A stretch of 20,287 bases of DNA from a virus. The notes under the pieces are model-generated. The model was not told the DNA's origin. It saw nothing but the letters and a program-made list of their open reading frames with translations, and made no database searches. Shown in pieces: positions 1 through 20,287 of the stretch. The first letter of the stretch is position 1. Each line of letters begins with the position of its first letter. A program made the translations under genes and the position numbers. The stretch is taken from positions 1 through 20,287 of IMG/VR virus record IMGVR_UViG_3300010430_000555. One strand, written 5' to 3'.

Positions 1-3000
1 CAAGATGATGGTGGAAGTACAATAAATGTAAGTGGTTCATCAACAGCAAGAACAGTTGCAGCTGTAACAGGTACAGTAAGTTCTTCTTCTTCTAACTTAG
101 CAACAGGAGCACAAATACAAACCGCTATTGATACAGCTGTAACAGGAGTGTTAAAATTTGATGGAACATGGAATGCAAGTACAAATTCGCCATCTTTATC
201 AAGTGGTACGGGTACATCGGGAGACTATTATATAGTGTCTGTTGCAGGTAGCACGAACTTAGATGGCATTACAGATTGGGCAATAGGAGATTGGGCTGTA
301 TTTGCTAATACAACATGGACTAAGATTGACAACTCTCAAGTAGGTAATGTAACAGGTAGCGGCGCTAGTGGTAAAGTAGCATATTGGAATAGTTCTTCAA
401 ATATTACAAGTCAAAATAATTTTACTTTTGATGGTAATAATTTAGCTGTTGGTGGCACTATGACTTGGTCAGGCGGTGGTTCAGGTGAATCTAATTTAGC
501 TTACGATAGGTCGATTACTTCGTTTGGTGATACAGGTACATCTATTATAACATTAACAATAGGTAGACAAGACGGTGGCACTTTAACTACATCGTTTAGT
601 AATCCACAAGGTACTGTAACATCTGTAGGAACTGGAACTGGATTAGATGGTTCATTTACAACATCAGGTACAATTACTTTAGATTTATCAGAGCTTACTG
701 ACATGACTCAAACTATGGTTGGGACTGATGAATTTATAGTTTTAGATTCTGGTGCAGAACGTAGAAAAGCAGCTAACGAAATAGGATTAAGTATATTTAG
801 CAATGATGCTGGATTTATAACATCATCTTCTATACCATCTGTTGGTAATGGAACACTTACAGTACAAGGAACAGGTGTATTAGGTGGCTCAGGAACTTTT
901 ACAGCTAACCAATCTGGCAATTCAACAATATCTGTAACGCATGATAATTCAGGAGCAACTGCTGGAAGTTATACAAATGCAAATGTAACAGTTAATGCTT
1001 CAGGACACATAACGTCTGTATCAAATGGTAGTGACGCCCAAGGTGTAACTTCTGTAGCAACTGGAAATGGTTTGACTGGAGGAACTATTACATCAACTGG
1101 AACTTTAACAATGTCTGGTTCTTATACTGGTAATTATACAAATACTGGAAACTTTACAGTAACAGGAAATTCTTTTCTTGGAAATGCTAATGGGGACTAT
1201 GTGCATGTTAATGATAAATTATATGTTGGTGCAACTGATAGTGGTAATGCAGAGTTTTGGTTTGGTGAAGGAACAACAGGTGATGTTAATTATGGTGCAA
1301 GATGGTATTGGGACAGTGGTTATACACATCAATGGTATACAGTAAATGCTAGTACAGAAACTCTAATGATGAGTTATGCAACTAATGATACTAGTAAATT
1401 ACAATGGTTCCGTAATTTTGATATGAATAACAATAAAATTATTGAGCTAGCCACGCCTACAGCAGCACAAGACGCAGCAAATAAGACTTATGTTGATACT
1501 GCTGTGGCTGGTGTGCCACAGGGTGATATTACAAATGTAAGTACAACCTCACCAATAACAGGTGGTGGATCAAGTGGTTCTGTAACTATTGCTCATGCAA
1601 ATTCAGGTGTGACTGCAGGTTCATATGCAAGAGCTACTGTAACAGTAAATGCTACAGGACACGTAACTTCTATATCAGCTAATAGTGACGCTCAAGGTGT
1701 AACTTCTGTTGCTACATCAGGATCAGTAAACGGTATAACATTAACTGGAGGTACAATAACCTCAACAGGTACTATTACATTAGGTGGATCAGTTAGTATT
1801 AATAATGGAAACTGGTCAGGTACAGATTTATCAGTTGCTAATGGAGGAACTGGCGCATCATCTGCATCTGCAGCAAGAACCAATTTAGGTGTTGTAAATG
1901 ACACTGGTACTCCAGCAATACTAAGTAATGGTTCTACGCCAAGTTTAAATAGTGGTATTACAGCTACAGAAGTAAGAACTCTTATAGGAGCTGGTACAAG
2001 TTCAAGTTCTGGTGTTACGAGTGTTGCAACCGGTGGTGGACTTACGGGTGGAACAATAACTTCAACTGGAACTCTATCGCACGCAGATACATCAAGTCAA
2101 GGTTCTGTAAATAATTCAGGTAATACATATATACAAGACGTAACGCTAGATACATATGGACATGTTACAGGTTTAACTTCTGCTACAACTACATTGGCTA
2201 CGCTTGGATATACAGGCGCAACTAACGCTAACTATATAACCAATAACAACCAGTTAACTAACGGTGCTGGATATGTAACATCTTCGGGTGGCTCAATGTC
2301 AACCTGGATAGTAAGTTCAGATTCTGGGTCTGCTACAATTACCAATGGTGCTACAATGAAGATTGCAGGGGGAACAAACATTTCTACAGCTGAAAGTAGC
2401 GGTATTGTTACAATAACTAATGGTATAACCAATAACAATCAATTAACTAATGGTGCAGGTTATACAACAAACACAGGTACAGTAACCGGTACAGGCACAA
2501 GTGGAAACGTAACTCTTTGGAACGGTACTTCAAGTGTAAACTCAAGTAATTCGCTTACTTTTTCTTCTGGAACTTTGTATTCCGAAAAAAGCTATCACGT
2601 TAAAACAGGTGCTACATCGGTTGCGTATACTTCTACAGGTGATACAGACACAGGTTTAGGAGAGTTTGATGGCGCTAATTCAGTAAGTCTTATAAGTAAA
2701 GGCGCAAAAATGATTACTGTAAAAGAAGGAGCTGTTAAGTTCGATCCATATACTGCTACAGCTGTTGGAACTGGTAGTCCAGCTGGTGCTTTAAACGCGA
2801 ATCAAAACAACCAAGCGCCAACTCAAGATACATTAGCAACTTTAGCTGTTGACCCAAGTGGTAATGTTGTAAGAGGTGAACAAGAAGGAACGTGGACGTT
2901 TACCAAAGCACAACTTGATGGAACATTAGGTCTTACATTAATAAGTGCTCCAGGAACAAACAAAGCAATTATAGTTACAGAATCTGACTGGATGGTAAAA

Positions 3001-3309
3001 TACAGTGCAACAGGATCTATAAGTGGTAACCAAAGTTATGATGTAAGACAAGCTAGTAACACAAACGCTTCCGCTACAATAACAACATTACCTGGATCAA
3101 GAATAAATGAAATATTAAGTGCCTCACAAGGTACTCCTACAAATCCAAGTTATGGATTTTGTGCAAGAGATATTCCATTGCAAACAAGAACATATAAGAC
3201 AAACACCGCAACTACGCTTCATAAAAAATCAAGTGATGCACTACCTTCTGGCGTAATAAGTATATCTATAAAATTAAAATATAGAATATTTAATGCAACT
3301 ACTTTTTAA
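1..3309 (+). CDS. Tail fibre / receptor-binding-type repeat protein (5' end outside window)
   Basis: The reading frame is open from the first base, so this is the 3' part of a longer gene (at least 1102 residues here); the first in-window GTG at 148 is not a convincing start. The protein is very rich in Gly, Thr, Ser, Asn and Val, with almost no Cys, and is built of recurring beta-strand units such as GVTSVATGNGLTGG, ending in STGT. Two short motifs are familiar from phage fibres: a PTAAQDAANKTYVD segment (about 1456-1500) and a VANGGTGASSASAARTNLG segment (1834-1890). The last 140 or so residues (from about 2880) are less repetitive and probably form a distinct C-terminal domain. The likely role is a trimeric fibre or appendage contacting the host. 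The product class is well supported by composition and motifs; the receptor is unknown, and a baseplate- or head-attached fibre is also possible. Confidence 0.8.
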   Translation, partial: QDDGGSTINVSGSSTARTVAAVTGTVSSSSSNLATGAQIQTAIDTAVTGVLKFDGTWNASTNSPSLSSGTGTSGDYYIVSVAGSTNLDGITDWAIGDWAVFANTTWTKIDNSQVGNVTGSGASGKVAYWNSSSNITSQNNFTFDGNNLAVGGTMTWSGGGSGESNLAYDRSITSFGDTGTSIITLTIGRQDGGTLTTSFSNPQGTVTSVGTGTGLDGSFTTSGTITLDLSELTDMTQTMVGTDEFIVLDSGAERRKAANEIGLSIFSNDAGFITSSSIPSVGNGTLTVQGTGVLGGSGTFTANQSGNSTISVTHDNSGATAGSYTNANVTVNASGHITSVSNGSDAQGVTSVATGNGLTGGTITSTGTLTMSGSYTGNYTNTGNFTVTGNSFLGNANGDYVHVNDKLYVGATDSGNAEFWFGEGTTGDVNYGARWYWDSGYTHQWYTVNASTETLMMSYATNDTSKLQWFRNFDMNNNKIIELATPTAAQDAANKTYVDTAVAGVPQGDITNVSTTSPITGGGSSGSVTIAHANSGVTAGSYARATVTVNATGHVTSISANSDAQGVTSVATSGSVNGITLTGGTITSTGTITLGGSVSINNGNWSGTDLSVANGGTGASSASAARTNLGVVNDTGTPAILSNGSTPSLNSGITATEVRTLIGAGTSSSSGVTSVATGGGLTGGTITSTGTLSHADTSSQGSVNNSGNTYIQDVTLDTYGHVTGLTSATTTLATLGYTGATNANYITNNNQLTNGAGYVTSSGGSMSTWIVSSDSGSATITNGATMKIAGGTNISTAESSGIVTITNGITNNNQLTNGAGYTTNTGTVTGTGTSGNVTLWNGTSSVNSSNSLTFSSGTLYSEKSYHVKTGATSVAYTSTGDTDTGLGEFDGANSVSLISKGAKMITVKEGAVKFDPYTATAVGTGSPAGALNANQNNQAPTQDTLATLAVDPSGNVVRGEQEGTWTFTKAQLDGTLGLTLISAPGTNKAIIVTESDWMVKYSATGSISGNQSYDVRQASNTNASATITTLPGSRINEILSASQGTPTNPSYGFCARDIPLQTRTYKTNTATTLHKKSSDALPSGVISISIKLKYRIFNATTF
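940..1107 (+). repeat. Tail-fibre repeat unit, copy A
   Basis: In-frame diverged repeat inside the fibre gene, matching the segment at 1594-1776. Both read His-x-Asn-Ser-Gly, then T-AGSY, then TVNA-GH-TS, then NSDAQ or GSDAQ followed by GVTSVAT and LTGGTITSTGT. The copies differ at many synonymous sites, so they are old duplications kept as protein repeats. Confidence 0.8.
1594..1776 (+). repeat. Tail-fibre repeat unit, copy B
   Basis: Second copy of the unit at 940-1107, with a short insertion (SGSVNGI) before the LTGGTITSTGT ending. A partial third copy of the second half (GVTSVATGGGLTGG, then TITSTGT) lies at 2011-2076, and a more diverged relative (GTVTSVGTGTGL) lies at 610-681. Confidence 0.8.
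2236..2274 (+). repeat. Short fibre repeat ITNNNQLTNGAGY, copy 1
   Basis: The 13-residue peptide encoded here is encoded again at 2425-2463 with identical amino acids but several synonymous changes, for example CAG/CAA and GGA/GGT. The two copies flank a roughly 150-base segment. This looks like modular duplication within the fibre stalk. Confidence 0.85.
2425..2463 (+). repeat. Short fibre repeat ITNNNQLTNGAGY, copy 2
   Basis: Second copy of the peptide repeat at 2236-2274: identical at the protein level, diverged at third codon positions. Confidence 0.85.
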
Positions 3310-3742: not shown

Positions 3743-5299
3743 ATGTCAGACATGATAGTAAAAAACCTTAGTTTTGGAAACGAAGCTAAGCAAGAAGTAT
3801 TTAAAGGTATAGAAAAACTCACAAAAGCTGTTAGCTCTACACTTGGAGCTAGCGGCAAATGTGTTTTGCTAGAAGATTCCTTTGGAAACCCAACCATAAC
3901 AAAAGATGGTGTAACAGTTGCAGATAGTGTAATACTTAAAAATCCTATAGAAAACTTAGGTTGTAGTTTATTAAAACAAGCCGCTAGAAAAACAGTAAAA
4001 GAAGCTGGCGATGGAACTACTACCGCAACGGTATTAGCTCATGCTATTTTAATTGAAGCTTATAAGCTTTCAAGCACTAGTAACTCTAGAGAAATAAAAG
4101 AAGGTATAAATAAAGCTACCGATAAAGTAGTTAAATACCTAGAATCAATATCATTATCGGTTAAAAATGATATGATTGATCAAATAGCAACTATATCTAC
4201 AAATAACGATAATAAGCTAGGTAAAATTATAGCCGACGCATTTAGGTCTGTAGATAATACAGGTGTTGTAATGATGGAGCAGTCAGAAAGCGGTAAAACA
4301 GAACTTGAAGTAATAGAAGGTTCTCAATATTTTAAAGGATTAACTAGTCCTCATTTTGTGACTAATAAAGCTAAGAATACAGCTGAACTAAGTAATCCAC
4401 TTGTTTTACTTATAGAGTCTCCGGTGGAAAGCGTTAGACAAATACAAAGTGTTTTAGAATACGTAATAAAAAATAATAAACCATTATTGGTTATAGGTGA
4501 TTTAAGTCCAGAAGTTTTATCAGCTTTAGCAATGAATAAAACTAAAGGTAATATAAAAGTAAATGTAATTGAAGCACCTACATTAGGTGTTAACAGAAAA
4601 GAAATGTTTGATGACATAGCTCTTTTAACAGGTGCTACATTAATAAATGAAGATTTAGGTGATGACATGGATATGATTCAAATAGAACATTTAGGATCAT
4701 GCTTAAAGTCTGTTACTGATAAAACAGAAACTATAATTCAACTTAAAGAAATAAATAAAGAGTCTTTAACTATTATAAAAGACATAAAAAAAGAATTGTT
4801 AGTATGTAAAATACCTGACAAAACTATAAGACTTGAAAAGCGATTAGCTATGTTAGCTGCTAAAATTGCAGTTGTTAAAGTTGGTGCTAATTCAGATATT
4901 GAATTAAAAGAAAAAATGGATAGAGTTGAAGATGCTATTTGTGCTACTAAAGCCGCGATTAAAGAAGGTATAGTGCCAGGTGGTGGAATCGCTTTATTAA
5001 ATGCTAGTTCTAATATAAAAGCTAAGTCAGATGGGGAGACTATATTGCTAGAAGCAATTAGAGCACCATTTAAGACCATATTAGAAAATGCTGGTATAAT
5101 AGATATTGATATGCCTAAAACAAAAGGAAGAGGTCTAGATGTTATTACTGGTAAAACAGTTAACATGATTGATTATGGCATAATTGATCCATTGTTAGTT
5201 ACTAAAAGCGCTTTAAAAAATGCAGCATCAGTAGCTACTACAATACTTTCAACTGATTGTGTAATAAATAACATAAGGATAGATGAAAGCAATAGGTAG
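3743..5299 (+). CDS. groEL: Phage-encoded GroEL-type chaperonin (Hsp60)
   Basis: This 518-residue group I chaperonin aligns by eye with bacterial GroEL along its whole length. The equatorial ATP-binding elements are intact: TKDGVTVA (Asp55, equivalent to E. coli Asp52), AGDGTTTATVLA (Asp90, equivalent to Asp87), VEDAICATKAA (Asp397, equivalent to Asp398), VPGGGIALL (412-419) and IIDPLLVTKSALKNAASVA near the C-terminus. The intermediate and apical domains are present. In the apical substrate/GroES-binding groove the usual Y-L-S-P-Y-F is L-T-S-P-H-F (200-205), so substrate preference may differ. The protein ends just after the equatorial domain and lacks the flexible GGM-rich tail. The GroES gene overlaps its 3' end by 17 bases. 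Complete ATP-site residues suggest an active ATPase ring that folds phage structural proteins. Very confident of the family; the substrate is unknown. Confidence 0.97.
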   Translation: MSDMIVKNLSFGNEAKQEVFKGIEKLTKAVSSTLGASGKCVLLEDSFGNPTITKDGVTVADSVILKNPIENLGCSLLKQAARKTVKEAGDGTTTATVLAHAILIEAYKLSSTSNSREIKEGINKATDKVVKYLESISLSVKNDMIDQIATISTNNDNKLGKIIADAFRSVDNTGVVMMEQSESGKTELEVIEGSQYFKGLTSPHFVTNKAKNTAELSNPLVLLIESPVESVRQIQSVLEYVIKNNKPLLVIGDLSPEVLSALAMNKTKGNIKVNVIEAPTLGVNRKEMFDDIALLTGATLINEDLGDDMDMIQIEHLGSCLKSVTDKTETIIQLKEINKESLTIIKDIKKELLVCKIPDKTIRLEKRLAMLAAKIAVVKVGANSDIELKEKMDRVEDAICATKAAIKEGIVPGGGIALLNASSNIKAKSDGETILLEAIRAPFKTILENAGIIDIDMPKTKGRGLDVITGKTVNMIDYGIIDPLLVTKSALKNAASVATTILSTDCVINNIRIDESNR

Positions 5300-5543
5300 A
5301 AATTTAATAATACAAAAAGAAAAACAAGTTACCACTGAAACAAAAGGTGGTTTAATTCTTGCAGAGTCACATAGAGAAGATATTAGATACACAAAAGCCA
5401 GTGTTGTATCTATTGGAGATGAGGTTGAAGGTTTAAAACAATCAGACACTATATTTTTTGATAGACATGCAGGTCATAAAATAGAAATAGGTGATTTAAC
5501 CTATCACGTCATTAAATTACAAGATGTAGTTGTTGTTTTATGA
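5283..5543 (+). CDS. groES: Phage-encoded GroES-type co-chaperonin
   Basis: An 86-residue protein with the GroES (Cpn10) pattern: an N-terminal strand (GRNLIIQKEK), a mobile loop region (about residues 16-34) with the hydrophobic GEL-binding tripeptide as LIL within KGGLILAES, a central strand ASVVSIGDEV, and a C-terminal strand HVIKLQDVVVVL. It is shorter than the roughly 97-residue bacterial protein, mainly where the roof hairpin and adjacent loops would be. It starts inside the 3' end of the GroEL gene, the reverse of the usual bacterial groES-groEL order, which argues for translational coupling and a dedicated pair. It should cap the neighbouring phage GroEL; whether it also works with host GroEL cannot be judged from sequence. 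Confidence 0.92.
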   Translation: MKAIGRNLIIQKEKQVTTETKGGLILAESHREDIRYTKASVVSIGDEVEGLKQSDTIFFDRHAGHKIEIGDLTYHVIKLQDVVVVL

Positions 5544-5986
5544 GAAAGCTAGATGCAGTAGATTTAAAAAATCTTAATCTGTTAAAACACTACCGAATAA
5601 TACGAAAGTGGGCTTGTAAAAACAACAACTTAAATGACGCTGATTTAGAACTGTTAATATATTTAGAATCTATAGAGTATTTTACTAAACAGGATTTTAA
5701 AACTGGTAGTTACTCTTATAGTTGGGATAATCGCAGATGGAACAGACTTCTTAAGCAAGGTTGGATAGTTGTTTGGAGAAATAGAAACAGAACAACACAA
5801 AAATACAATATATATAATGTTTCTTTTAAATTTAAACAATTAATAAATAAAATTTATAAAATAATGTTAGGTGAAGAAGATTTACCTATTAGTAAAAGAA
5901 GAAACAAAATAATAAATGGAAATAGTTATACAGACAAAGTACTGACAAAAGCTATTTATAATGTAAATAAAGATAAACACAGATAA
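5540..5986 (+). CDS. Winged-helix-like small protein, possible DNA-binding regulator
   Basis: A 148-residue protein whose ATG overlaps the GroES stop in an ATGA arrangement, so it is probably translationally coupled to the chaperonin genes. The first 95 residues look like a MarR-like winged-helix unit: a helical start, LNDADLELLIYLESIEYFT (a typical helix-turn-helix lead-in), then WDNRRWNRLLKQGWIVVWR followed by a short strand pair resembling a wing (RNRTTQKYNIYNVS). The C-terminal part is strongly basic (SKRRNKII and further Lys/Arg). No enzyme motif is seen. It could be a transcriptional regulator of late genes or a virion DNA-binding protein. The fold call is by eye only; no operator was identified. 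Confidence 0.6.
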   Translation: MRKLDAVDLKNLNLLKHYRIIRKWACKNNNLNDADLELLIYLESIEYFTKQDFKTGSYSYSWDNRRWNRLLKQGWIVVWRNRNRTTQKYNIYNVSFKFKQLINKIYKIMLGEEDLPISKRRNKIINGNSYTDKVLTKAIYNVNKDKHR

Positions 5987-11621: not shown

Positions 11622-12062
11622 ATGTTAAAAAACTTAAGTGTAACAAACATGCTCTATGGAATTGGAGCAGCAATTGTTATTTTAGGAGCCTTATTTAAGA
11701 TACAACACTGGAATGGTGGCTCTTTATTATTAACAATAGGTATGATAACAGAGGCTGTTGTATTTACTTACTCTGCTTTTGAAAAAAAAGAAAATAATAA
11801 TAACAAAAGAGGAATAATAGAGGATGCGCCCAATGATCCTATTGCTTATATAAAAGCTCAAAAAAAATATATTGATGAAATTAAAGATGCAACTAAAAAT
11901 ATTTCTTTAATAAACAAAGCTCATAAAAATCAACTTAAACTTATTAAAAGTTCAACTGATGCTTATAAAACAATTAACACAGAAGCTAACTCTTTAGCTC
12001 AACATACTTATTTTATGAGTAAAACTTATTATTCAATATTAAAAGCAATGAAAAGCAAATAA
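11622..12062 (+). CDS. GldL-like membrane protein (gliding/T9SS motor component homologue)
   Basis: A 146-residue protein. Its first 54 residues match the membrane part of flavobacterial GldL almost throughout: YGIGAAIVILGALFKIQHW, a short loop, then LLLTIGMITEAVVFTYSAFE. Two hydrophobic helices (about 11-25 and 34-52) are separated by a loop about five residues shorter than I recall for Flavobacterium johnsoniae GldL. Lys26, His29, Glu44 and Glu54 line up with conserved charged residues that work on the GldLM proton-driven motor implicates (cellular numbering from memory). After residue 54 it differs: an Asn/Lys-rich, helical, basic tail instead of the long GldL cytoplasmic domain (GldL is about 215 residues). 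The holin-like gene follows two bases after the stop. It probably inserts in the inner membrane. It could poison or modify the host motor, block superinfection, or aid lysis. The family match is strong; the role is inference. Confidence 0.88.
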   Translation: MLKNLSVTNMLYGIGAAIVILGALFKIQHWNGGSLLLTIGMITEAVVFTYSAFEKKENNNNKRGIIEDAPNDPIAYIKAQKKYIDEIKDATKNISLINKAHKNQLKLIKSSTDAYKTINTEANSLAQHTYFMSKTYYSILKAMKSK

Positions 12063-12064
12063 CT

Positions 12065-12463
12065 ATGAAAAAAATATGGGAATGGTTAAGCGGTAACGTT
12101 ATCAAAGATGTTGGTGACGTTATCGATAAACTAACAACTACAGAGGAAGAAAAACTTGAAATTAAAAAAGAAATTCAAGTTATAGTAGAAAAAGCAGCTG
12201 CAACAGCAGAAGACCAAATAACAAGACGCTGGGAATCCGATATGACATCAGACTCTTGGCTTAGTAAAAATACTCGCCCTATGGCGCTTATATTTTTATC
12301 GTTTATGGCTATAGCTTTTATATGGGTTGATAGTCACCATGAAATATCTTTTACAGTTGAGCAAGAGTGGATAGAATTATTAAAACAATTATTAACAACC
12401 GTGTATGTAGCTTATTTTGGCTCACGTGGTTTTGAAAAATATAAATCAATAAGTAACAAATAA
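12065..12463 (+). CDS. Holin-like membrane protein
   Basis: A 132-residue protein. An amphipathic, charged N-terminal half (MKKIWEWLSG, then a Glu/Lys-rich helix) leads to SWLSKNTRPMALIFLSFM, a hydrophobic helix (about 72-89), a short loop and a second hydrophobic helix (about 103-119), ending in a basic tail. The SWLSKNTRP-hydrophobic pattern is characteristic, from memory, of the three-transmembrane holin family (PF11351-type), although only two strong helices are visible here. Holins permeabilise the inner membrane at a set time and release endolysin. No endolysin is recognised in this window. Tight coupling with the GldL-like gene suggests both membrane proteins are made at the same stage. 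A membrane protein is certain; holin activity is likely. Confidence 0.75.
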   Translation: MKKIWEWLSGNVIKDVGDVIDKLTTTEEEKLEIKKEIQVIVEKAAATAEDQITRRWESDMTSDSWLSKNTRPMALIFLSFMAIAFIWVDSHHEISFTVEQEWIELLKQLLTTVYVAYFGSRGFEKYKSISNK

Positions 12464-13126: not shown

Positions 13127-13343
13127 TATTAGAAAAATAAGTATTGGTTCTGATTACAAGAATGACGCTATGCATTATGCTGTTGGACAGCAAGTTTATG
13201 GTGGTCACGAAATATCTCACATTTTATTAAACGATTCAGACAATTCTTATAATATACACATAAAGAAAAACAACGAAATATTGCCGTGGAAGAAATTTAA
13301 TTCTAACATGGCAATATCAGTTGAGTATGATCTAGAATATTAA
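13116..13343 (+). CDS. Hypothetical 75-residue protein
   Basis: I place the start at 13116 (MANNIRKISIGSDY), which overlaps the preceding gene by 11 bases. An upstream in-frame ATG at 13059 would add 19 residues read out of frame through the coiled-coil gene and is unlikely. The product is a compact alpha/beta-looking protein with YAVGQQVYGGHEISHILL and an acidic, strand-like end (MAISVEYDLEY). No motif I can name is present. It overlaps the next gene by one base (TAATG), so translation is probably coupled. Found in the run leading to the terminase genes, it may be an assembly accessory protein. Confidence 0.65.
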   Translation: MANNIRKISIGSDYKNDAMHYAVGQQVYGGHEISHILLNDSDNSYNIHIKKNNEILPWKKFNSNMAISVEYDLEY

Positions 13344-13948
13344 TGAAAAGCTTATATGACTTTATTGTAGAACCATTAGGTGATAAATACAATAATGAAA
13401 TAAAAATAAACAATAAAAGCTTAGTATTAAATAGCAAAATAGAAAGTTTTAAATTTGTAAATAGGCACGCTATAGTTAAAGCTATACCTTTGGCTTTTAA
13501 AACAAATATAAAAATTGGAGATATATTAATTATACATCAAAATGTTTTTAGAACTTTTTATGACTCAAGAGGTAAAAAGAAAAAAAGTAGATCTTTTTTT
13601 AAAGAAAACCTATATTTTTGTGCTTTAGATCAAATTTATTTGTATAAAAATAAAGATGGCTGGAACTCTATAAACAATAGATGTTTTATAAAACCTATAG
13701 TTAATAAAGACACTTTAGTTAATGATAAAGAAAAAAGTCTTATTGGCATATTAAAGTATGGAAATAACGTCTTAGAACAGCTAGATATAAACATAGGGGA
13801 CCTAGTTGGTTACACGCCTGGTGGTGAATGGGAATTCTTAATAGATAAAGAAAGACTATATTGTATGAAATCAAATGATATTGTAATTAAATATGAACAT
13901 AAAGGAAACGAAGAAGAATATAATCCTAGCTGGGCAAGTAGCAGTTGA
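13343..13948 (+). CDS. Tandem GroES-like (Cpn10-fold) protein, proposed
   Basis: A 201-residue protein that by eye carries two GroES-like halves. Half one runs DFIVEPLG, then LVLNS, AIVKAIPLA, IKIGDILIIHQN (56-67) and YFCALDQIYLYK (91-102). Half two has GILKYGNN, INIGDLVGYTPG (149-160) and YCMKSNDIVIKY (173-184). This mirrors GroES, where a strand is followed by a V-G-D-I-V-I-F turn and a final strand ending in S-D-I-L. The two IGD turns and the two final-strand motifs align with each other. The first half has a basic insertion (RGKKKKSRSFF, 76-86). A clear GroEL-binding mobile loop is not obvious in half two. It sits just before the terminase genes and could adapt the chaperonin for capsid or portal folding, or be a structural barrel protein. 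The fold is inference without structure search. Confidence 0.55.
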   Translation: MKSLYDFIVEPLGDKYNNEIKINNKSLVLNSKIESFKFVNRHAIVKAIPLAFKTNIKIGDILIIHQNVFRTFYDSRGKKKKSRSFFKENLYFCALDQIYLYKNKDGWNSINNRCFIKPIVNKDTLVNDKEKSLIGILKYGNNVLEQLDINIGDLVGYTPGGEWEFLIDKERLYCMKSNDIVIKYEHKGNEEEYNPSWASSS

Positions 13949-14168
13949 AGAGCTAATTAAAGTAGCAAAAGAAGCTATTGTAGATTCAGGAGACGATATA
14001 ACAGCAGATAGACTTAAAAATGCTGCTGCAACTAAAAAACTGTGCATATTTGATGCGTTTGAAATACTAACTAGAATACAAGCTGAAGAAGATTTGTTAA
14101 ACGAAAAACCTAAAGAAATAAAAGAAGAAAAGTCTTTTAAAGGTTTTGCTGAGGGAAGATCTAAGTAA
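13893..14168 (+). CDS. terS: Probable terminase small subunit
   Basis: A 91-residue, mostly helical, charged protein immediately upstream of the large terminase, overlapping it by one base (TAATG). It overlaps the preceding gene by 56 bases in another frame. The only Met is at 13893, and the run IILAGQVAVEELIKVAKEAI looks like a genuine helix spanning the overlap, so I keep the long overlap. The helical core continues with DRLKNAAATKKLCIFDAFEI and an acidic/basic tail (KPKEIKEEKSFKGFAEGRSK). Position, size and helical content fit a small terminase subunit, which recognises viral DNA and stimulates the packaging motor. The family assignment rests mainly on context. Confidence 0.65.
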   Translation: MNIKETKKNIILAGQVAVEELIKVAKEAIVDSGDDITADRLKNAAATKKLCIFDAFEILTRIQAEEDLLNEKPKEIKEEKSFKGFAEGRSK

Positions 14169-16384
14169 TGTACGAGCAAAGTTTATATAAAGTATTAAAA
14201 GACCATATTAAACCTAAAGTTTTAAAAAGAAACAATAGGTATAAAAAATGGGAATATGGTTATAACGAAGAACACGATGTTATAATTATAAGTAAAACGG
14301 GTGAAATAGGCGAAGTATATGAAATACAGAACTTAAAAATAGCTTTACCTAAACAAAACGATGTAGTAGAGTTTAAAGAAAACAAATGGAGTCACACAGA
14401 ATATCCTAAACAATTAAAAAAGATAAAATCTGTTTTTGATTGGGAAGAATATCCAACAGAATTTAAAGAAGAATGGTATGATTACATTGATAAAGAATTT
14501 AATAGAAGAGAACAAGGTTTTTGGTTCTATAATAAAAACGTGGCTACTTACATTACTGGTACTCACTATATGTACTTGCAGTGGTCCAAAATTGATGTTG
14601 GGCAACCAGACTTTAGGGAATCAAATAGATTATTCTACATTTTCTGGGAAGCTTGCAGAGCAGACTACAGGTGTTATGGTATGTGCTATCTCAAAAACAG
14701 GCGTTCCGGATTTTCATTCATGGCCTCTGGCGAAACCGTCAACATGGCGACCATTTCAACGGATTCACGGTTTGGGATTTTGTCCAAATCTGGCCCCGAT
14801 GCTAAAAAGATGTTCACAGATAAGGTTGTACCAATATCCGTTAATTATCCATTTTTCTTTAAACCAATCCAAGACGGTATGGACCGTCCAAAAACCGAAC
14901 TTGCCTACAGAGTACCAGCATCCAAATTTACCCGTAGAAAACTTGACTCCAATCAAACCCTTAAAGAAATTACCGGTTTGGACACCACAATCGACTGGAA
15001 AAACACCGGTGACAACTCCTATGATGGTGAAAAGCTCAAACTCCTCGTTCACGATGAATCGGGTAAATGGGAAAGACCAAACAATATATTAAATAATTGG
15101 CGCGTTACAAAAACAACTCTTAGATTAGGTAGTAAGATAATAGGTAAGTGTATGATGGGTTCAACATCAAACGCTTTAGATAAAGGTGGTGATAATTTTA
15201 AAAAATTATACTATGATTCAGATATTAAAGAAAGAAACGCCAATGGACAGACTCGCTCAGGACTCTATTCTTTGTTCATACCTATGGAATGGAACTACGA
15301 AGGATACATTGATTCTTATGGATTACCTGTCTTCGAAACTCCAAATAAAAAAACCTTTGGACCTCACGGTCAAGAGATAAAAATAGGAGTAATTGAATAC
15401 TGGCAAAATGAAGTTAATGGTTTAAAAAAAGATCAAGACGGTTTAAATGAATTTTATAGACAATTTCCAAGAACTGAACAACACGCTTTTAGAGACGAAG
15501 CAAAACAATCAATATTTAATTTAACAAAAATATACGAACAAGTTGATTTTAATGAAGACTGCAAAAGTGAGTCACTAATAACAACAGGTTCTTTTAATTG
15601 GCACGGTGGTATAAAAGATAGTCCAAACGGTGTTTTATTTGTACCAAATGAAAACGGTAGATTTAAAATTTCTTGGGTACCTGAGTTAAATCTTCAGAAT
15701 CGTTTAATAATGAAAAATGGACTAAAGTATCCAGCAAACGATCACATGGGTGCTTTTGGTTGTGACAGCTATGATATATCAGGTACTGTTGATTCTCGTG
15801 GATCAAATGGTTCACTACACGGTTTAACTAAGTTTTCTATGGAAAACGCACCACCTAATATGTTTTTTTTAGAATATATAGCTAGACCACAAACAGCAGA
15901 AATGTTTTTTGAAGATGTACTTATGGCATGTATATTTTATGGTATGCCAATATTAGCTGAAAATAATAAACCTAGGCTGCTTTATTATTTTAAACGTAGA
16001 GGTTATAGAGGATATTCAATGAATAGACCAGATAAGTCTATTGCTAAATTGTCTGTTACAGAAAGAGAAATAGGTGGAATACCTAATTCAAGCGAGGATA
16101 TAAAGCAAGCACACGCTGCAGCTATAGAATCATATATAGAGACACATGTTGGTAATTTAGGTGAATCTTATGGAAACATGTACTTTCAAAGAACACTAAA
16201 TGATTGGGCTAGATTTGATATTAATAATAGAACAAAACATGATGCTTCTATTAGCTCTGGATTAGCAATAATGGCTTGTAATAAAAACAAATATAATCCT
16301 GTTTTTAAAAGAAAATTAGAAGTAAAACCATTAGGTTTTAAAAAATATAATAACGAAGGATATAGTTCACAAATAATACAATAA
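14168..16384 (+). CDS. terL: Terminase large subunit (packaging ATPase/nuclease)
   Basis: A 738-residue protein, long for a terminase but within the range of large phage packaging motors. The ATPase domain has a variant Walker A at about 176-183 (KNRRSGFS, lacking the classic GxxxxGK[ST]) and a Walker B at LKLLVHDESGKW with Asp296-Glu297. The C-terminal part contains a likely RNase H-fold nuclease: FGCDSYDISG (Asp533 as a metal ligand candidate), followed by acidic residues including FFEDVLMACIFYGMPILAE. The enzyme cuts concatemeric DNA and pumps it into the procapsid through the portal, which is encoded directly after it with no gap. Bases about 14684-15075 (Walker A to Walker B) use markedly different codons and higher GC than the rest of the gene. 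Very likely correct from motifs and gene order. Confidence 0.92.
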   Translation: MYEQSLYKVLKDHIKPKVLKRNNRYKKWEYGYNEEHDVIIISKTGEIGEVYEIQNLKIALPKQNDVVEFKENKWSHTEYPKQLKKIKSVFDWEEYPTEFKEEWYDYIDKEFNRREQGFWFYNKNVATYITGTHYMYLQWSKIDVGQPDFRESNRLFYIFWEACRADYRCYGMCYLKNRRSGFSFMASGETVNMATISTDSRFGILSKSGPDAKKMFTDKVVPISVNYPFFFKPIQDGMDRPKTELAYRVPASKFTRRKLDSNQTLKEITGLDTTIDWKNTGDNSYDGEKLKLLVHDESGKWERPNNILNNWRVTKTTLRLGSKIIGKCMMGSTSNALDKGGDNFKKLYYDSDIKERNANGQTRSGLYSLFIPMEWNYEGYIDSYGLPVFETPNKKTFGPHGQEIKIGVIEYWQNEVNGLKKDQDGLNEFYRQFPRTEQHAFRDEAKQSIFNLTKIYEQVDFNEDCKSESLITTGSFNWHGGIKDSPNGVLFVPNENGRFKISWVPELNLQNRLIMKNGLKYPANDHMGAFGCDSYDISGTVDSRGSNGSLHGLTKFSMENAPPNMFFLEYIARPQTAEMFFEDVLMACIFYGMPILAENNKPRLLYYFKRRGYRGYSMNRPDKSIAKLSVTEREIGGIPNSSEDIKQAHAAAIESYIETHVGNLGESYGNMYFQRTLNDWARFDINNRTKHDASISSGLAIMACNKNKYNPVFKRKLEVKPLGFKKYNNEGYSSQIIQ
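14684..15075 (+). other. Codon-shifted, GC-elevated patch inside terL
   Basis: Hand count: 157 G+C of 360 bases (44%) at 14701-15060, against 51 of 180 (28%) at 14221-14400 in the same gene. All nine Leu codons in the patch are CTC, CTT or TTG and none is TTA, whereas the first six Leu codons of the gene are all TTA. Arg uses CGN in four of seven cases. The reading frame and motifs stay intact, so this is a recoded or exchanged segment, not an insertion. Confidence 0.8.
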
Positions 16385-18799
16385 ATGACATATACTAATT
16401 ACGTAGGTTCATTTCCAAGTCAAGTAGTATCAGACGAAGAGAAGCAAGGTTACGAATACGGTTACGCCGTAGGTCGCGCAATAGAAGGCGAATGGTTTTC
16501 TGGAGACAGAGGTGGCATGGGAAATAGATACCAAAATAGTTGGTTAAATTTTCACAGACTAAGATTATACGCTAGAGGTGAACAATCTGTTCAAAAATAC
16601 AAAGATGAATTATCTATTAATGGTGATTTATCTTATTTAAATTTAGACTGGAAACCAGTTCCTATTATACCTAAGTTTGTAGATATAATAGTAAACGGTA
16701 TGTCTCAAAAAATTTTTGATATAAAAGCTTATGCACAGGATCCTGAGTCTTTAAAGCAAAGAACAAAGTATGCTGATGCTATAATGAAAGATATGTATGC
16801 TAAAGAAATAATTCAAGCTACAAATGAAGCTACTGGTATGGATTTTTTTAACAGCAACGATCCTAATAACATACCTGAATCTCAAGATGAATTAGATCTT
16901 CACATGCAACTGTCTTACAAGCAATCTATAGAAATTGCAGAAGAAGAAGCTATAGAAAATGTTTTAGCAGCTAACAAATATGAATTAATAAAAAGAAGAT
17001 TAATATCTGATTTAACTATAATAGGTATAGGTGCTGTAAAAACAGATTTTAACTTATCCAACGGTGTTACATTAAATTATGTAGACCCTGCTAATTTAGT
17101 TTATTCATACACAGAAGATCCAAACTTTGAAGACATATATTATGCCGGAGAAGTAAAATCTATTAGTTTAGTAGAATTAAAAAAACAGTTTCCTGGTTTA
17201 ACAGATGAGGAATTAAAACAAATAGAAAAGTTTCCTGGTGATGCGAATTATACTAGAAACTTCTACGCGCAACAAGATTCTTATAATCAAGTTCAAGTTT
17301 TATATTTTGAATACAAAACATATAGTAATCAAGTATTTAAAATAAAACAAACAGATCAAGGATTAGAAAAAGCACTAGAAAAACCAGATACATTTAATCC
17401 ACCTGAAAGTGATAACTTTGAAAGAGTTGGAAGAGCTATAGAGGTTTTATATACTGGTGCTAAAATACTAGGTCATGAGATGATGTTAGAGTGGAAGATG
17501 TCAGAAAACATGACAAGGCCAAATTCTAACGTAACAAAAGTTAACATGAATTACTCTATATGTGCTCCTAGAATGTATAAGGGCATGATAGAATCAACAG
17601 TTAGTAGAATAACTGGTTTTGCTGATATGATTCAATTAACACATTTAAAACTACAACAAGTTTTATCTAGAATGGTTCCTGATGGTGTTTTTGTTGATGT
17701 AGATGGTTTAGCTGAAGTTGATTTAGGCAATGGCACAAACTATAACGCTCAGGAAGCACTTAATATGTACTTTCAAACTGGTAGTATAGTAGGTAGATCC
17801 ATGACACAAGATGGTGATTTAAATAGAGGTAAAGTTCCTATTCAAGAACTTCAAACTTCTTCTGGTAATGCTAAAATAGGATCTTTAATACAAACTTATC
17901 AGTATTACTTACAAATGATTAGAGATGTAACCGGGTTAAACGAAGCTACTGATGCTAGTACTCCGGACGCACATGCTTTAGTTGGTTTACAAAAAATGGC
18001 AGCTGCAAACTCAAATACAGCGTTAAGACATGTAATGCAAGGTGGTTTATACCTAACATTAAGAACATGCGAAAATATAGCGTTGAGAATAGCAGATGCC
18101 TTAGATTATCCTTTAACTAGGGCTGCATTAATAGATTCTATATCGTCTTATAATACTGGTACTTTAGAGGAATTACAAGAAAAAACGTTACAAGACTTTG
18201 GTATATATTTAGAATTAGAACCAGACGATGAAATGAAAGCTCAATTAGAGCAAAACATTCAAACAGCACTAGCATCTGGTGGTATTGATTTAGATGACGC
18301 TATTGATATTCGTCAAGTTAAAAATATAAAATTAGCAAATGCTTTATTAAAACAAAGTCGAAAAAAGAAAGCCGCTAGAGATCAAGCTAATCAACAAGCG
18401 AATATACAAGCTCAAGCGCAAGCAAATTCACAAGCAGCTCAACAAGCTATAGAGGCTGAAATGCAAAAGCAACAAGCTTTAGCTGAAACAACAATACAAA
18501 TTGAGCAAGCAAAAATACAGTTTGAAATAAATAAAATGCTTCAGGAGGCTAAAGTTAAAAAAGAACTTATGGCTGAAGAATTTAGCTATAATATGAAGTT
18601 GGCTCAAATAAAAGCACAAGCAGAAACACAAAAAGAAAAAGAAATAGAAGATAGAAAAGATAATCGAATAGAAAAACAAGGAACACAAGAGTCTGAGTTA
18701 ATAAACCAAAGACAAAACAACACTTTACCTCAAAGTTTTGAATCCGCAGGATTTGATGGACTAGGAGGGTTTGGATTAGAACAATTTGATCCTAGATAA
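16385..18799 (+). CDS. Portal protein
   Basis: An 804-residue protein starting at the base after the terL stop, in the canonical TerL-portal order. The N-terminal and central regions look like a phage portal: KPVPIIPKFVDIIVNGMSQK, GIGAVKTDFNLSNGVTLNYV, DPANLVYSYTEDPNFEDIYY, then a long helical region with TPDAHALVGLQKMAAANSNT. The C-terminal 150 residues (about 655-770) form a Gln/Ala/Lys/Glu-rich continuous helix likely to be a coiled coil or barrel extension of the portal ring, followed by a Gly-rich end. Portals form dodecamers at one head vertex and connect head, packaging motor and tail. The long C-terminal helix could reach into the DNA-filled head. The assignment rests on position, size and overall pattern; there is no strict sequence motif. 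Confidence 0.85.
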   Translation: MTYTNYVGSFPSQVVSDEEKQGYEYGYAVGRAIEGEWFSGDRGGMGNRYQNSWLNFHRLRLYARGEQSVQKYKDELSINGDLSYLNLDWKPVPIIPKFVDIIVNGMSQKIFDIKAYAQDPESLKQRTKYADAIMKDMYAKEIIQATNEATGMDFFNSNDPNNIPESQDELDLHMQLSYKQSIEIAEEEAIENVLAANKYELIKRRLISDLTIIGIGAVKTDFNLSNGVTLNYVDPANLVYSYTEDPNFEDIYYAGEVKSISLVELKKQFPGLTDEELKQIEKFPGDANYTRNFYAQQDSYNQVQVLYFEYKTYSNQVFKIKQTDQGLEKALEKPDTFNPPESDNFERVGRAIEVLYTGAKILGHEMMLEWKMSENMTRPNSNVTKVNMNYSICAPRMYKGMIESTVSRITGFADMIQLTHLKLQQVLSRMVPDGVFVDVDGLAEVDLGNGTNYNAQEALNMYFQTGSIVGRSMTQDGDLNRGKVPIQELQTSSGNAKIGSLIQTYQYYLQMIRDVTGLNEATDASTPDAHALVGLQKMAAANSNTALRHVMQGGLYLTLRTCENIALRIADALDYPLTRAALIDSISSYNTGTLEELQEKTLQDFGIYLELEPDDEMKAQLEQNIQTALASGGIDLDDAIDIRQVKNIKLANALLKQSRKKKAARDQANQQANIQAQAQANSQAAQQAIEAEMQKQQALAETTIQIEQAKIQFEINKMLQEAKVKKELMAEEFSYNMKLAQIKAQAETQKEKEIEDRKDNRIEKQGTQESELINQRQNNTLPQSFESAGFDGLGGFGLEQFDPR

Positions 18800-20047: not shown

Positions 20048-20287
20048 ATGAGTTTACAACCTCAATTTGGGAATTTAGTCCCATCTCAAGCACAGGAAGT
20101 ATTAAACAGCAACTACCTACAATGGAATGATGCTGCAGGTGCTAACTTCGTGGATTTTGCACAACAATATCTACCTGAAGTATACGAACAAGAAGTAGAG
20201 CGTTATGGAAACAGAACGTTATCTGGCTTTTTAAGAATGGTTGGCGCTGAAATGCCAATGACTTCTGATCAAGTAATTTGGTCTGAA
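20048..20287 (+). CDS. Probable major capsid protein (5' end only, runs out of window)
   Basis: The ATG is at 20048 after the leader AACAATTTAAAAATT. The frame stays open to the window edge (80 codons). The product starts MSLQPQFGNLVPSQAQEVLN and continues with AAGANFVDFAQQYLPEVYEQ and FLRMVGAEMPMTSDQV. The position after terminase, portal and scaffold-like genes is where the major capsid gene sits in most tailed phages. The N-terminus is helix-rich and acidic, like the N-arm of several capsid families. C-ending codons (AAC, TAC, TTC) are more frequent than in most of the window, consistent with high expression. The fold (HK97-type) cannot be shown from this fragment. Confidence 0.7.
   Translation, partial: MSLQPQFGNLVPSQAQEVLNSNYLQWNDAAGANFVDFAQQYLPEVYEQEVERYGNRTLSGFLRMVGAEMPMTSDQVIWSE

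Follow-up and report, generated by a model that had tools for sequence, protein, structure and literature searches.

A GroEL/GroES pair and a predicted two-domain co-chaperonin gene in a phage that probably infects Flavobacteriaceae

The genes of the window

The stretch of DNA analysed here, which at its full length of 20,287 bases we call the window, is an IMG/VR virus record. It carries a gene for a GroEL-like chaperonin, an overlapping gene for a single-domain GroES and, adjoining the packaging genes, a third chaperonin-related gene that was overlooked in the preliminary description of this DNA. The features that bear on our argument are as follows.

1..3309, plus strand: long Ser/Thr/Gly-rich repetitive protein, judged by its sequence a possible tail fibre; reading frame open at the start of the window
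3743..5299, plus strand: GroEL-like group I chaperonin, 518 aa, without a GGM tail (PF00118, PHROG 5725, AF2 model)
5283..5543, plus strand: single-domain GroES (Cpn10), 86 aa, overlapping GroEL by 17 nt (PF00166, hhalign)
5540..5986, plus strand: small 148-aa protein whose gene shares 4 nt with that of GroES (PHROG 17028, a family of unknown function, E 5.8e-10)
13343..13948, plus strand: predicted tandem GroES-like co-chaperonin (Cpn20-like), 201 aa (PHROG 13932, AF2 model, terminase linkage)
13893..14168, plus strand: small conserved protein, 91 aa, between the tandem gene and the terminase (matches in 162 related loci searched)
14168..16384, plus strand: terminase large subunit (PHROG 6681, E 3.1e-163)
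16385..18799, plus strand: portal protein (PHROG 6547, E 1.8e-139)
20048..20287, plus strand: virion structural protein of which the window contains only the start (PHROG 13704, E 3.9e-6)

The terminase is 62% identical to that of phage ctfjg026 (MW202828), 45% to that of Elemovirus and 36–38% to those of Cellulophaga phages such as phi46:3 and phi38:1. This likeness suggests that the host of this marine phage is most likely a member of the Bacteroidota, and probably of the Flavobacteriaceae. Gene order suggests that the truncated structural protein is possibly the major capsid protein; a fragment of the repetitive protein at the other end gave no match in Pfam and PHROG searches. Between the chaperonin pair and the packaging genes lie several other small genes. 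The short protein of 7498-7794 matches several PHROG families (10346, 727, 3477 and others) in their C-terminal part and is perhaps a shared tail or virion-binding domain. GldL is a motor protein of gliding and type IX secretion, and a 146-aa protein encoded at 11622-12062 contains its N-terminal domain (PF22827, E 3e-23; TIGR03513 above cut-off). Its gene, found in 11 related loci at 57–78% identity, directly precedes that of a holin-like protein (12065-12463; PHROG 3427, E 4e-24; matches in 127 related loci searched). The 146-aa protein may be a partner in lysis or may interfere with the motor of the host.

The preliminary description had called the first chaperonin gene a full-length group I chaperonin, and this is borne out both by sequence family (PF00118, E 6.8e-59, 200 bits against a cut-off of 34.3; PHROG 5725 "chaperonin groEL", E 2.4e-132) and by the predicted three-domain Cpn60 fold, whose AF2 model (pLDDT 84) matches E. 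coli GroEL with a Z of 42.3 over 508 residues. Its score of 464 bits against the NCBIfam GroEL equivalog TIGR02348 falls under the curated cut-off of 582, and we thus regard the protein as divergent and do not call it a cellular-type GroEL equivalog. The claim that all ATP-site residues are present holds for the catalytic ones (K51, D52, D87, T89-T91, D398, G414/G415 and D495 in E. coli numbering) and is slightly too strong as a whole: P33 is alanine here, and N479/A480/A481 are replaced by D/V/I. Alignment to E. coli GroEL also confirms the altered apical groove and the missing GGM tail that had been described. The apical motif LTSPHF amounts to Y199L and Y203H, further substrate-site changes are L234Q, A241I, V263A and V264M, and these changed substrate-binding residues are conserved within the window GroEL family; the GGM tail is likewise absent from the other phage GroELs compared. 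The tuning of this groove to capsid or fibre proteins, which the preliminary description put forward, stays a conjecture. Pairwise dN/dS among relatives is 0.04–0.17, indicating purifying selection.

Residues that join the two rings of GroEL appear to be lost. We took the inter-ring salt bridges R452-E461 and K105-E434 as the mark of a double ring. In an alignment with local gaps, E434 of the window GroEL falls within a deletion and R452 is lysine, and the E461/S463/V464 stretch is deleted in nearly all GroELs of the window family. The single-chain AF2 model has coil following helix 441-449, in the place of the inter-ring helix of E. coli GroEL. The single-ring mutant SR1 is altered at R452, E461, S463 and V464, and because the lost contacts coincide with these positions it is plausible, on the gapped alignment and single-chain model, that the window GroEL forms single or weakly joined rings.

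The downstream GroES is recognised by Pfam (PF00166, E 6.7e-12, 45.7 bits against a cut-off of 21.1) and by a bacterial GroES profile (hhalign 96%); it has the GG-hydrophobic mobile loop, as the motif GGLIL, and a pairwise dN/dS of 0.10–0.24, which again indicates purifying selection. The genes overlap at 5283-5299, in the order EL then ES. Our scan of IMG/VR gave 21 loci with a GroEL 71–98% identical to that of the window, and both the order and the identical 17-nt overlap recur in all 20 relatives with a readable pair (in one, L019, the GroEL start is cut off by the contig end). GroES lies upstream in 35 of the 37 cellular loci in which a GroES was recognised nearby (in 40 further cellular loci the simple motif used recognised none), which makes the reversed phage order a real difference from bacteria. 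Both the overlap and the order opposite to most bacteria had been noted before and stand; the order is common to Elemovirus, ctfjg026 and Panino. A promoter scan around the operon gave results at chance level, and an Rfam search gave no match. The 148-aa gene lies directly 3' of GroES in 9/9 relatives checked. Homologues of it sit beside GroES, on the opposite strand, in ctfjg026, Panino and phi46:3 (L023, L024 and L311), and that of ctfjg026 is annotated "repressor protein"; the protein is a possible winged-helix regulator, judging from its sequence, and its gene possibly a regulator linked to the chaperonin genes.

The tandem GroES-like gene

The third gene encodes a protein whose relation to GroES was revealed by PHROGs, hhalign and a folded model. 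Searched alone against the PDB and Pfam, the tandem protein gave no match; a profile search of the PDB gave weak matches to GroES, and PHROG 13932 "co-chaperonin GroES" matched with an E of 4.7e-21. An AF2 model built from 62 sequences (pLDDT 88, pTM 0.81) predicts a single chain that carries two GroES-fold domains in tandem, domain 1 at about residues 1-106 and domain 2 at about 107-185. Among PDB structures, both comparison programs place Cpn20 of the Chlamydomonas chloroplast first (7ekq_R; Foldseek E 8.3e-6); the predicted structure aligns to it with a Z of 10.0 and an rmsd of 4.1 over 156 residues within the span 1-185. For GroES structures the aligned part is residues ~105-187 (Z up to 8.5) and for T4 gp31 it is residues 1-103 (Z 6.6), whereas proteins outside the GroES group, reductases and dehydrogenases, start at a Z of 4.9.

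The two domains differ in how they are recognised. Domain 2 matches bacterial GroES by hhalign (96%), and its counterparts in the tandem homologues of phi46:3, phi38:1 and G020, another phage record, exceed the Pfam Cpn10 cut-off. Domain 1 has no similarity detectable by hhalign to GroES (12%) or to domain 2, and the same comparison of domain 1 of phi46:3 likewise detected none; the identification of domain 1 as GroES-like thus comes from the predicted model. In domain 1 the model shows a long loop of ~30 residues, predicted with lower confidence, in which a hydrophobic motif (such as LVLN) is conserved. The mobile loop of domain 2 is short in the window lineage, so that the GroEL-binding mobile loop in both domains that marks Cpn20 was not found; in G020 and phi46:3 it is long, with GroES-like hydrophobic motifs.

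The gene is widespread and its position is fixed. At least 597 stretches in IMG/VR encode relatives, and in all 152 testable loci the terminase lies downstream, usually with one small gene between. Pairwise dN/dS is 0.07–0.18. In a literature search restricted to open papers, no two-domain phage GroES was described, and the tandem protein of phi38:1, 31% identical to that of the window, is annotated as hypothetical only. New relative to those papers are the two-domain, Cpn20-like nature predicted for this co-chaperonin linked to the terminase and the finding that it occurs alongside Cpn10 and Cpn60. Separately, a 218-aa frame in phage DAC22, which belongs to a different group, contains a weak, below-cut-off Cpn10 match (71310-71417 of its record, L314; E 0.001) and may encode a further tandem co-chaperonin.

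Relatives, distribution and origin

A phage GroEL/GroES pair is not in itself exceptional, contrary to the preliminary description, and is already known in this phage group. GroEL matches were found in 282 of 50,697 phage records, many of them near-duplicates; GroEL was reported in 2017 in 36 of 78 environmental genomes of the phi38:1 phage group (PMC5332604); and the annotation of Elemovirus phages gives GroEL followed by GroES. Some phages are known to have both genes (PMC7185714), and homologues of both have been reported in Maribacter phage Panino (PMC11590407). The GroEL of phi38:1 has been detected by mass spectrometry (PMC13288928). In the crAss-like phages phi14:2 and cr111_1, the genes adjoining GroEL are not GroES-like. 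A further GroEL, from a record named Acinetobacter phage MD-2021a (L308, CAKLQF020000019.1), was set aside as bacterial sequence; that record carries groS, groL and housekeeping genes.

The closest arrangements are those of Elemovirus (Flavobacterium phages, e.g. NC_055854) and Panino, which share the pair in the order EL then ES and a tandem GroES-like gene beside the terminase but lack the same-strand string of three genes that includes the 148-aa protein. The Elemovirus GroEL is 39% identical to that of the window, and its gene shares 1 nt with GroES rather than 17; in Panino a small ORF lies between the two. Phage phi38:1 and the marine Bacteroidetes phages of "group 2" (PMC5332604) share the terminase family and have GroEL, GroES-like and tandem genes; the order in phi38:1, however, is ES, one ORF, EL, and its GroEL is 37% identical to that of the window. 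More distant systems resemble the set in part. The jumbo-phage proteins EL gp146, OBP gp246 and AR9 are phage GroEL homologues for which single-ring forms are known (PMC9598537, PMC7185714), but they act without a co-chaperonin, and the two that we compared, OBP and AR9, are at most 26% identical to the window GroEL. T4 gp31 and RB49 CocO are phage lids linked to virion morphogenesis, and gp31 resembles the predicted fold of tandem domain 1; they are, however, single-domain proteins that use host GroEL, with no GroEL of the phage (PMC3012670). The chloroplast, from which such an arrangement is best known, combines one- and two-domain co-chaperonins with one group I chaperonin and shares the predicted tandem fold, but Cpn20 is only ~12% identical to the window protein and has the long domain 2 mobile loop missing here, and common descent is not evidenced.

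Both lids recur together more widely than GroEL does. Each of the longer window-family records with GroEL also has both co-chaperonins, as does phi38:1. The complete genome of phi46:3 encodes two proteins annotated co-chaperonin GroES, one with a single domain (gp074) and one of the tandem kind (gp092), and a search of that genome for GroEL found none; G020, a possibly incomplete record, likewise has both lids and no GroEL that we could find. The phi46:3 genome indicates that the lids persist where the host has to supply the GroEL, and that the two lids may be the more ancient part of the set.

Could the pair instead have been captured recently from a host, or the contig be a chimera of phage and host? 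Capture does occur: in a 60-row tree, the GroELs of Bacteroides phage DAC22 and of a 735-kb phage fall among those of the Bacteroidota. For the window family itself, an AU test does not reject a place with the Bacteroidota (p 0.18) or with the Flavobacteriaceae (p 0.177). In the 60-row tree, however, the window family forms one clade (node value 97) outside the bacterial sequences (98), and with the longest branches removed it joins Elemovirus, Panino and ctfjg026 (95). The best cellular GroEL is only ~43% identical (38–43% among the best 80), and the pair recurs in 20 other viral contigs and in cultured relatives. Low cellular identity and the many independent contigs make recent capture or a chimera so improbable that we treat it as ruled out, and the view of the pair as genuinely of the phage stands. 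On these sequence comparisons GroEL appears old in this phage group. We do not propose a rooted origin, because the tree is long-branched and the AU test keeps both groupings.

Possible function of the set

We consider it probable that Cpn60, Cpn10 and the Cpn20-like protein are a phage-owned set that folds proteins of the phage, most likely those of the virion. An infecting phage would thereby bring its own group I chaperonin machinery: GroEL would bind unfolded chains and use ATP, and the single-domain GroES made from the overlapping gene would cap it. The tandem co-chaperonin, whose gene adjoins those of terminase and portal, would probably be made with the morphogenesis genes, and could provide or modify a lid for large virion proteins, much as T4 gp31 does for gp23, where it makes a larger cage for that capsid protein (PMC3012670). 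The fixed place of the tandem gene beside the packaging genes suggests virion-protein substrates, as for gp31. We count the dN/dS values, well below 1 for all three genes, in favour of a folding set, and count against it that the identity of tandem domain 1 comes from a model, that domain 2 in this lineage has no long mobile loop, and that GroEL and the tandem gene lie 8 kb apart, which makes their joint action no more than presumed.

Two other accounts start from the same observations. The set might be a general stress or takeover chaperonin serving the whole infected cell, host and phage enzymes alike. In its favour, the GroEL/GroES operon stands apart from the capsid genes and, in other phages, is placed elsewhere, near the DNA polymerase in immuto and among other genes in phi38:1. 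Such a role would leave unexplained why the terminase follows the tandem lid in every testable locus, and why the apical substrate-binding residues are changed yet conserved within the family; we think it rather unlikely. The fixed linkage to the terminase could also be read to mean that the tandem protein is a GroES fold reused as a packaging or virion-assembly factor bound to terminase or portal, and not a co-chaperonin at all. Domain 1, with no GroES similarity detectable in its sequence, and the short loop of domain 2 in this lineage fit such reuse. That domain 1 nevertheless retains a flexible loop in which a hydrophobic motif is conserved, and that the phi46:3 and G020 homologues have GroES-type loops in a domain 2 above the Pfam cut-off, argue the other way, and we hold reuse to be about as doubtful as a cell-wide role.

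If the three proteins do form a folding set, the chloroplast offers an analogy for how the lids might combine. There, mixed lids are built from Cpn10 and Cpn20, and hetero-oligomers of seven-fold form are considered likely (PMC5780408). By analogy, three tandem chains and one GroES, for example, would make seven domains on a possibly single-ring phage GroEL, and a virion protein would be enclosed in a cage that is enlarged or asymmetric; in relatives of the phi46:3 type the same lid would sit on host GroEL. The shortened domain 2 loop and the 8-kb distance lower our confidence in this arrangement, which we offer as a speculation with the odds against it.

Should the three genes act together, the phage would have reached independently the scheme of the chloroplast, in which one chaperonin is served by lids of one and of two domains; cultured hosts are available for testing this. 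Phage phi46:3, with its lids and no GroEL, makes it possible to ask whether the lids first retuned host GroEL and a ring of the phage's own was added later. As a natural test, the set could also show which contacts between rings are dispensable in a GroEL that still works with GroES.
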